Virus record (IMG/VR): IMGVR_UViG_3300025325_000921
Span: 1 to 28,248 of that record
Source: a virus
Length of the DNA: 28,248 nt
Strand: one strand, 5' to 3'
Both the position numbers and the translations under genes were made by a program. A model generated the notes under the pieces. It saw nothing but the letters and a program-made list of their open reading frames with translations, was not told the origin of the DNA and ran no database searches. Positions 969 through 28,248 of the stretch are shown here, piece after piece (position 1 is the first letter of the stretch; every line of letters starts with the position of its first letter).

Positions 969-1245
969 GGATAGTTGCTCCAATTTGAATCAGGATCGCT
1001 CCCAGCCTCTCTAAGTCATAGTGGTACATGCTATCCCTCTCTTCATAAAGAAGTTGTTTCATACGCTCAATATCATCGTTTGCATCTCCTATGGTGTGGG
1101 TACGCGCTTGATCATTAAGAACTGTATCAATATCCTTGTGCCATATCTTTAAGTAGAGACTATCTTTGAGGGTGATCTCGCTCTTATCGAGAGATTCCAA
1201 TAAAATACGTGTAACCTCTAGCAACTCTTTGATAGTAATGGTCAT
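958..1245 (-). CDS. Unknown 95-aa helical protein, possible partner of the Hint protein
   Basis: A mostly helical, acidic protein of 95 aa with no signal peptide or membrane segment and no family I recognise. The start overlaps the stop of the Hint-domain gene as ATGA, so the two are very likely translated together. In polymorphic toxin loci the small gene directly after the toxin usually encodes the cytosolic immunity protein, and size and position fit that role. This is inference from arrangement only; no immunity-family motif is visible. Confidence 0.65.
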   Translation of the reverse strand: MTITIKELLEVTRILLESLDKSEITLKDSLYLKIWHKDIDTVLNDQARTHTIGDANDDIERMKQLLYEERDSMYHYDLERLGAILIQIGATIHED

Positions 1246-2204
1246 CGTGAACCTCTTCTTCTGATCACTTTTTCATTGGCCTTAAAGCGCGCTTCTTGCG
1301 CCTGCTTTGTTTGGTTATCAATTTCATCCTTCAGGTGCTTGATACGCCTTCTGATAATGTCGTTTCTTCTTGACTGATTACGCCCTGCGTCCCTAAGCTT
1401 GTTTAGATTGTCATGCGCATCGGGATTCTTGCCATATTCATGAAGCTTCACCCTGTGTTCTTCGGCTCTTTTGTCGTGGGATCGCGCGGACTTCTCAAAC
1501 TTGTTACGGTCATATTCTTCGTACTTATAAACCCACTCCCAGTCATCTTCATCATCTTTTTTAGGCGGTTCGCCATCGCCTCCTCCACACGCAAAACCAG
1601 GCTTACAATTCTCTTTAGCAAACCCAAGTCTCCTGGCAAGCTCCTCATTACTCATTGGTCTTTGTTGTGGCCCAAATACGTAACGTGCAGCATAACCAGC
1701 GTATTGTGCTCCAACAGCCATATAGAATTGGTTGTGTACTAACACATCTTCAATGGTCACACAGTAGTTGTGGTACTCTTCTATCGTAAGATCATAGAAC
1801 TCAAACCCCTCCTCAAAGACAGAAAGGCTGCGATCTTTAAAGTTAATGTATACGGGGTGTATACAGTTCTTAAGCAAGATTGTGTTTTGCTCTTTGAGGT
1901 CATCTGCTCTTATCCAGTCTTCGTGCTCTTGATCATAAAAGAAGTGATCCGGGTGTACGTGAATCATAGACCGACCATCAACCATGAGCGTAATACACTC
2001 AGTCCCCGTCATCATGTGCTTATGTAATATCCTGCGGGGGACACAGTGCCCCTCATAGTCATATGAGACTACTAAGTCATTCTCTTTGAGATACGCTATC
2101 TGTGTATAACCTGATGGCGTCTTAACCAGGGTATTACCCACAAAGCCATGACCGAATACCTGTGTTGTTGTTAATAACGCTAGCAATAGATTCTTATAGT
2201 TCAC
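1242..2204 (-). CDS. Secreted Hint-domain protein with charged C-terminal domain (polymorphic-toxin-like)
   Basis: Protein of 320 aa starting at GTG with AGGAG 7 nt upstream. Residues 1-18 look like a signal peptide. Residues 20-158 match a Hint (hedgehog/intein) fold: FVGNTLVKTPSGY and LKENDLVVSYD at the front, HVHPDHFF in the middle, and YDLTIEEYHNYCVT and EDVLVHN at the end. The cysteine that normally precedes the opening F-V is replaced by Gly20, so self-cleavage is probably lost or altered. Residues 159-320 contain an acidic linker and a highly charged helical domain rich in Lys, Arg, Glu and Asn, in the place where polymorphic toxins carry the effector domain. I cannot name that domain. 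The adjacent 95-aa gene could be its immunity partner. A role in lysogenic conversion or exclusion of competitors is inference. Confidence 0.75.
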   Translation of the reverse strand: MNYKNLLLALLTTTQVFGHGFVGNTLVKTPSGYTQIAYLKENDLVVSYDYEGHCVPRRILHKHMMTGTECITLMVDGRSMIHVHPDHFFYDQEHEDWIRADDLKEQNTILLKNCIHPVYINFKDRSLSVFEEGFEFYDLTIEEYHNYCVTIEDVLVHNQFYMAVGAQYAGYAARYVFGPQQRPMSNEELARRLGFAKENCKPGFACGGGDGEPPKKDDEDDWEWVYKYEEYDRNKFEKSARSHDKRAEEHRVKLHEYGKNPDAHDNLNKLRDAGRNQSRRNDIIRRRIKHLKDEIDNQTKQAQEARFKANEKVIRRRGSR

Positions 2205-25636: not shown

Positions 25637-25643
25637 AGATCAC

Positions 25644-25668
25644 CTTAAAGTTAAAGTAAAACTTTAAG
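25644..25668 (-). promoter_or_regulatory. Hairpin covering part of the capsid gene's ribosome site
   Basis: CTTAAAGTT (25644-25652) and AACTTTAAG (25660-25668) form a perfect 9-bp stem with a 7-nt loop. In the capsid mRNA the AAG of the AAGGTGAT ribosome site lies in the stem's 3' arm, 7 nt before the ATG. It could moderate or regulate initiation. Confidence 0.5.
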
Positions 25669-25670
25669 TC

Positions 25671-25746
25671 TGGACGAATGACTTAGACCATTTTTGCGTC
25701 CGTAATCTTAAGCGTGGACGAGTCACTTAATTGGCTTTTGCGTCCG
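25671..25746 (-). repeat. Tandem stem-loop repeats in the capsid mRNA leader
   Basis: Two 32-nt copies (25671-25702 and 25715-25746), 44 nt apart, match at 24 of 32 positions. Each begins TGGACGA and ends TTTTGCGTCCG, so GGACG pairs with CGTCC in both. The differences are concentrated in the loop while the stem arms are identical. With the ribosome-site hairpin they make the leader highly structured. Confidence 0.6.
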
Positions 25747-25780
25747 GATGGGTGAATGACGTCCTATTACATTCACAAAG

Positions 25781-25810
25781 ACTATAGCACTTTTCATTGT
25801 TGAATTGCAA
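25781..25810 (-). promoter_or_regulatory. Candidate promoter of the major capsid gene
   Basis: On the minus strand, TTGCAA (25805-25810) and TATAGT (25781-25786) are 18 nt apart. Transcription would start near 25774 and give a leader of about 138 nt. A terminator lies directly upstream, so an independent promoter here is needed for strong capsid expression. Confidence 0.5.
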
Positions 25811-25813
25811 TCC

Positions 25814-25935
25814 GTCTCCGCAGGGCTACGCCGAGACATGAAAAAAGAACCGGCGCTTGTGCTACCGGCTCAATTCTTATAGGTTCAGTACCATAAGAGA
25901 GTACTTTTCCGCCGTCGCCGAGGCTATGGCGCGAC
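25814..25935. repeat. Pair of related GC-rich stem-loops flanking the terminator
   Basis: Elements at 25814-25837 and 25914-25935 start exactly 100 bp apart and match at about 18 of 22 aligned positions, including a shared GGCTA loop. The outer stems are GTCTC/GAGAC and GTCGC/GCGAC; the fourth pair changes from T-A to G-C, a compensatory change. The 302-bp gap 25637-25938 holds no convincing gene; besides these it contains the terminator, the capsid promoter and the leader repeats. Confidence 0.5.
25841..25871 (-). terminator. Rho-independent terminator between scaffold and capsid genes
   Basis: On the minus strand, GAGCCGG (from 25871) pairs with CCGGTTC (to 25847), with one G-T wobble, followed at once by TTTTTT. 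A further two GC pairs are possible inside the loop. It ends transcription coming from the scaffold gene, so the capsid gene must be transcribed separately. Confidence 0.75.
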
Positions 25936-28171: not shown

Positions 28172-28211
28172 GATACGACAAGCTTATAACAGATGAGTTA
28201 AGTTTTGCTAG

Positions 28212-28248
28212 TGGCGGGATAAGTGGGACTCGAACCCACGCTCTCACG
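28212..28248 (-). tRNA. tRNA, 3' part only (isotype not determinable)
   Basis: On the minus strand the sequence shows a T-arm (GTGGG, loop TTCGAGT, CCCAC), then the acceptor strand TTATCCC, discriminator G and an encoded CCA. The anticodon lies beyond the window edge. The reading frame through this region (starting MRAWVRVPLIPP) is the usual artefact of translating a tRNA. Confidence 0.85.

Follow-up and report, generated by a model that had tools for sequence, protein, structure and literature searches.

The capsid locus

The window analysed here, a stretch of 28,248 nt, is the entire IMG/VR record IMGVR_UViG_3300025325_000921. Its minus strand carries a gene for a major capsid protein of the N4-gp56 family, whose product scores 156 bits against the TIGR04387 model (cut-off 60), and all elements of the leader described below lie on the same strand (Table 1). 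The gene preceding the leader gave no match to a PHROGs, Pfam or NCBIfam family; a preliminary description of the locus had called it the scaffold gene, and we keep that name by position only, as the gene before the capsid gene. Near-identical contigs extend the window through a tRNA-Asp gene, a P22-like portal gene and an intein-bearing terminase gene (terminase and intein were read off the sequence). The window phage belongs to a large uncultured group whose phages combine a P22-like portal with a capsid protein of the N4-gp56 family.

The tRNA-Asp gene straddles the end of the window, continuing in contig L007 (6623-6699), and sits between the portal and capsid genes; the diverged relative L009 has this gene too. 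The terminase gene of L007 (9174-11792) contains an apparent large in-frame intein, and a separate gene for a Hint/intein-like domain is found in the window.

Between the putative scaffold gene and the capsid gene, the preliminary description had reported a terminator, a promoter pair, two repeats with identical arms and a 9-bp hairpin overlapping the ribosome site, and all of them are present. The Rho-independent terminator-like hairpin, which would end the upstream transcript, is also found in the relative L005, and terminator-like signals lie upstream of 20 of 56 related leaders, compared with 7.8 in shuffles. The promoter is of the extended -10 type. Bare consensus matches of this kind are not above chance (24 found versus 28.4 expected), but the position of the promoter is conserved in relatives, as detailed below, and both hexamers are kept in L005.

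Two GC-rich palindromic segments of about 31 nt lie in the same region and are missing in L005. They have a common core with a compensatory change (GTCTC/GAGAC versus GTCGC/GCGAC), and no additional copies were found in the window or in the near contigs searched. From their sequence they look like a tiny mobile palindromic element.

Table 1. Positions of the genes, signals and RNA elements in the window.
Feature	Position	Strand	Elements and evidence
Hint/intein-like domain gene	1242-2204		PT-HINT E 1e-9
Major capsid protein gene, N4-gp56 family, 319 aa	24677..25636	-	TIGR04387 E 1.1e-45; PHROG 1357 major head protein E 5.5e-36
Shine-Dalgarno	25646-25641	-	AAGGTG; entered by the 3' arm of the 9-bp hairpin
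9-bp hairpin	25644..25668	-	CTTAAAGTT/AACTTTAAG; 5' arm overlaps S2' of pseudoknot 3
Pseudoknot 3 (last)	25665..25701	-	S1 GGACG 25701-25697 / CGTCC 25676-25672; S2 TAAGTC 25685-25680 / GACTTA 25670-25665
Pseudoknot 2	25709..25745	-	S1 GGACG 25745-25741 / CGTCC 25720-25716; S2 TAAGTG 25729-25724 / CGCTTA 25714-25709
Repeats, 39-nt family	25664-25702 / 25708-25746	-	spacing 44 nt; arms GGACG/CGTCC identical
Probable degenerate pseudoknot 1	25746..25776	-	stem 1 GTGAATG/CATTCAC, 25776-25770 / 25758-25752; fold
Promoter	25781..25810	-	TTGCAA-18-TATAGT; TG one base before the -10 (extended -10)
Palindromic segment	25811-25841		GTCTCGGCGTAGCCCTGCGGAGACGG
Rho-independent terminator-like hairpin	~25871-25841	-	GAGCCGGTAGCACAAGCGCCGGTTC + TTTTTT; sequence and fold
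Palindromic segment	25908-25938		GTCGCGCCATAGCCTCGGCGACGG
tRNA-Asp gene	28211-28248		straddles the window end

Tandem pseudoknots in the leader

The pattern GGACGCAAAAN6TAAGTNANTCGTCC, which describes the two repeats, occurs twice in the window even when three mismatches are allowed, and was found in none of 100 shuffles. The leader also folds better than shuffled sequence (z of -2.8 for 153 nt and -3.4 for 246 nt). In the diverged relative L005/L009 the promoter and repeats are 97% identical; the repeats are unchanged and hairpin 1 still pairs.

Relatives were gathered by portal and capsid protein searches (capsid identity about 37-60%), and 56 non-redundant capsid leaders were taken just upstream of the capsid starts. 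These leaders contain a repeated unit, GRCG-UAN-GAG-NYU-CGYC-AN-CUC, with the H-type topology S1-S2-S1'-S2': GRCG pairs with CGYC to form S1, and a GAG-like strand in the loop pairs with a CUC-like strand after the stem-loop to form S2. Most leaders have two to four units, with a maximum of eight, and the loop bases (CGUA...UCG) are conserved across units. A search with a unit grammar, tuned on these same leaders, yielded 89 units in 46 leaders, compared with a mean of 1.5 (maximum 5) in 50 shuffled sets.

The one test free of this circularity is a permutation of S2, for which units were picked by S1 and its flanking bases alone and the downstream strands were permuted among units (1000 permutations). 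An S2 of at least 3 bp was present in 85 of the 95 units (35 expected, maximum 49) and one of at least 4 bp in 64 of them (13.5 expected). Furthermore, two gap-free sets, one of 37 distinct units and the other of 27, gave 94-95% pairing in S2, with two-sided changes at every pair. The covariation scores of S2 (0.455 and 0.630, versus 0.177 and 0.264 in shuffles) were equalled in none of 500 shuffles and exceed by far all slid-register controls. The outer positions of S1 hold GC, AU and UA pairs while its inner CG is invariant, counts that are less independent because S1 pairing was used to pick the units. The structure of the tandem pseudoknot units is well supported by comparison of sequences. 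The preliminary description had seen tandem stem-loops with divergent loops. The tandem, structured nature of the units stands, and the loop sequences do differ (UAAGUG versus UAAGUC), but these loops hold a second conserved helix, formed with nucleotides 3' of the stem-loop, and the units are pseudoknots, the last of which overlaps the ribosome-site hairpin. Plain stem-loops with variable loops were dropped once this second helix was seen in relatives. Missing conservation of the stems in related phages had been named as evidence against the original proposal; the stems are conserved, and S2 covaries.

In the window, the S2 helices of pseudoknots 2 and 3 differ from each other through paired changes (AAGUG/CGCUU versus AAGUC/GACUU), that is, changes that are compensatory between tandem copies. 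For unit 3 the minimum-energy fold favours a local AAUGG/UCAUU pairing over the pseudoknot, in a program that scores no pseudoknots. The hairpin at 25776-25752 probably opens the series as a degenerate element, which would make the window array one of three units. Its stem is retained in L005 through compatible changes, and its second helix is weak in the window (GGA/UCC), the L005 counterpart being UGG/CCA.

The units are placed precisely with respect to the promoter. In 25 of the 29 leaders checked, a gap of 5-7 nt separates the end of a -10-like hexamer from the first S1, and the mean match to TATAAT across leaders shows a sharp peak at a gap of 6 nt. The window has the same spacing (TATAGT-CTTTGT-GAATG), with GAATG beginning 6 nt past the -10. 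With the usual promoter geometry, transcription would begin at the first base of the first S1, and the first pseudoknot therefore sits at the predicted 5' end of the transcript. The position of the -10 and the units themselves, both conserved in relatives, support the earlier proposal of a structured leader and a separate promoter for the capsid gene.

Occurrence of the leader

Counted over both strands, 1.9 Mb of related sequence yields 93 strict units within capsid leaders and 49 outside them. The latter are scattered singles, save for three loci and one palindromic chance pair. The tandem pairs at these three loci (L071, L096 and L112) do precede capsid genes; an intron-like insertion within each gene had led to a wrong assignment of its start. 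A blind scan of 2.9 million viral contigs of IMG/VR with one common unit sequence matched 42 contigs. In 38 of them the match was directly upstream of an N4-gp56-type capsid gene, and the other four, two unrelated pairs, have the unit only once each. Among the published isolates inspected that have the same capsid family, no such leader was seen; the gaps before their capsid gene are roughly 5-25 nt, so the leader marks the uncultured group.

The longest array (L172, 4589-4880) has eight tandem units, seven of them nearly identical at an exact period of 24 nt, and judged by this regularity it is a recent amplification of units within a capsid leader; another leader (L136) has five units. In two relatives, L026 (10632-12000) and L030 (4840-5325), extra genes are inserted between the scaffold and the capsid leader, so that leader and capsid gene remain together even where the surrounding genes differ. 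These extra genes include a small ORF common to both (144-161 aa), with an apparent hydrophobic N-terminal segment.

Intron-like insertions, a number of which seem to contain a homing endonuclease ORF, split the capsid genes of many relatives, often at a conserved FYG site (L040, 1718-2500; L041, 1790-2500; L046, 1716-2500; L047, 175-420 and 650-900). Insertions of this kind also occur in the capsid genes of L071, L096, L112, L145 and L153. None of the Rfam intron models reached its gathering score in the capsid-insertion loci scanned. The sole hint of a host, the Methylococcaceae MAG contig L047, which contains a capsid fragment, is too weak to use.

Overlap with the Shine-Dalgarno hairpin

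As the preliminary description had noted, a hairpin overlaps the ribosome site. In 43 of 56 leaders (44 with L040, assigned by eye) the 5' arm of this hairpin, whose 3' arm enters the Shine-Dalgarno, doubles as the S2' strand of the last unit; the place of S2' in that unit was set partly by visual inspection. The overlap is missing in 12 or 13 of the 56, about a fifth. Since the S2' strand is common to the last pseudoknot and to the hairpin, the two structures exclude each other. In the window the free energy of the hairpin is -6.2 kcal/mol when whole and -0.5 once pseudoknot 3 takes its first four bases (CUUA). The stem of the hairpin changes in a compensatory manner between leaders (CUUAAAG/CUUUAAG in the window, CUUGAG/CUCAAG in L041, CUUGAA/UUCAAG in L104). 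Many leaders have CUUAAG/CUUAAG, and the loop sometimes exceeds 60 nt (L148, L151). The median fold z of the leader tails is -1.5. Read from these sequences, the anatomy of the leader is that of a putative expression platform, in which one strand of a structural element would serve as the anti-Shine-Dalgarno.

The promoter and its position, both helices with their covariation, the restriction to capsid leaders and the overlap with the Shine-Dalgarno hairpin are all read from sequence, and on them we base the following model. The capsid mRNA would have its own leader of tandem small H-type pseudoknots, of which the window has three, and the first of them would be located at the 5' end or close beside it. 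When the last pseudoknot is folded, the anti-Shine-Dalgarno strand would be captured, leaving the ribosome site open, and capsid would be made; when it is undone, the hairpin would close the ribosome site. The balance could be set by a factor such as a phage protein (capsid or scaffold, for instance) or by the folding path of the nascent RNA, protein binding being the likeliest single effector, a putative one. The pseudoknot array may also protect the 5' end of the transcript against decay. On balance, we consider it fairly probable that the tandem pseudoknot leader of the capsid mRNA is a cis-acting translational switch and a 5'-end protector.

Alternative explanations

In the first alternative, the units would be a protein operator, bound cooperatively by capsid, scaffold or another phage protein that represses or activates capsid translation. 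The units are repeated with the same loop bases, vary in copy number and occur only before the capsid gene, and there is a precedent in T4 gene 32, where gp32 acts at a leader pseudoknot (PMC3014915). However, such a protein is one possible effector of the switch model rather than a wholly separate mechanism, and the binding partner is hypothetical; as an explanation of its own we regard the operator as possible, though not the probable one.

A static 5' stabiliser, in which decay from the 5' end (by RppH/RNase E or RNase J) is blocked because the pseudoknots leave no nucleotides unpaired there, while the Shine-Dalgarno hairpin is incidental and nothing switches, appears rather unlikely. Unit 1 does begin at the predicted +1, capsid is the most needed virion protein, and 5'-terminal stem-loops are known to stabilise bacterial mRNA, the RppH of B. 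subtilis requiring at least two unpaired 5' nucleotides (PMC3997798). Yet one terminal structure would be enough for this role, and two to eight units with conserved loop bases go beyond it. It also leaves unexplained the overlap of S2' with the Shine-Dalgarno arm in most leaders.

The geometry of the unit raises another alternative. A loop of only 1-3 nt joins S1' to S2' where S1 has 3-5 bp, which is tight for a classical coaxial H-type fold, and some pairs may not coexist. Taken to the extreme, S1 and S2 would never form together and each unit would be a bistable pair of alternative hairpins. We find this improbable: the length of S1 trades off with the loop (a loop of 3 nt where S1 has 3 bp, of 1 nt where it has 5 bp), suggesting one fixed geometry, and both helices are conserved in every unit, in up to eight consecutive ones. 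Finally, DNA-level binding sites (an operator or origin iterons) might be suspected from repeats near a promoter and the 24-nt period of one array, but the units are placed after the -10, the Shine-Dalgarno hairpin and the last helix overlap, and the stems are free to differ in sequence, both helices showing compensatory changes, so that this reading is very improbable.

Relation to known RNAs

Rfam 15 gave no match to the leader at gathering or relaxed thresholds. A likeness of GGACGCAAAAGCC to the core of the c-di-GMP-I riboswitch, noticed by eye, was set aside, with no Rfam match even at E<=5. Translational riboswitches such as preQ1-I and SAM/SAH contain an H-type pseudoknot, one strand of which sequesters the Shine-Dalgarno or competes with it, and the upstream pseudoknot domain of tobacco mosaic virus is a series of consecutive small pseudoknots. 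Compared with these riboswitches (PMC11625349), the capsid leader is without metabolic gene context, its units are in tandem and it has no Rfam match. The tobacco mosaic virus domain belongs to the 3' UTR (PMC4683447) of a plant RNA virus and is likened to the leader by architecture alone.

The closest analogue in architecture is the STAXI RNA motif (RF01728), a small pseudoknot that occurs as a tandem series, most often of three, close to DNA-handling genes of Enterobacteriales and that frequently has UUCG tetraloops (PMC2864571). Both have a tandem pseudoknot unit, but the arrays described here are directly before capsid genes and not before DNA-handling or DNA-binding genes. Homology was rejected: the RF01728 covariance model matched 0 of 11 records, window included, at E<=10, and the Rfam scans contained no STAXI match. 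Nearest in function is the leader pseudoknot of T4 gene 32, the autogenous operator of gp32, which lies upstream of the ribosome site and controls translation (PMC3014915). The capsid leader likewise has a 5' pseudoknot upstream of the ribosome site. In contrast, T4 has a single pseudoknot followed by unstructured A+U-rich repeats, before the gene of a single-stranded DNA-binding protein and not of a capsid protein. The corresponding region is a hairpin in most capsid leaders, and PMC3014915 describes no overlap with a Shine-Dalgarno hairpin for T4. Neither of the two is the same thing as the capsid leader, which is therefore a new family of a known kind, the cis-acting leader RNAs, and not categorically new. 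No description of a leader of this kind was found in open-access papers, a part of the whole literature.

In dsDNA phages, the excess of capsid over scaffold and other virion proteins is usually credited to promoters and ribosome sites. Here, the capsid gene of a large uncultured group bears a dedicated, covarying tandem pseudoknot leader with what appears to be a built-in Shine-Dalgarno competition. According to a 2010 review, the pseudoknot of T4 gene 32 may be the sole viral one with a role in translational autoregulation (PMC3014915); beside that single case, the leaders would form a whole family. The leaders are short, are built from modules of about 24 nt each and can be tested with reporters in E. 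coli, and the tandem array would be a ready anchor to find such phages in metagenomes. In a bolder reading, to which we give little weight, the leaders would be a new and widespread class of phage cis-regulatory RNA: tandem 5'-terminal pseudoknots would sense the state of virion assembly from the free protein, capsid or scaffold, and adjust the translation of capsid by switching between pseudoknot and anti-Shine-Dalgarno hairpin, the number of units being an evolvable dosage dial.
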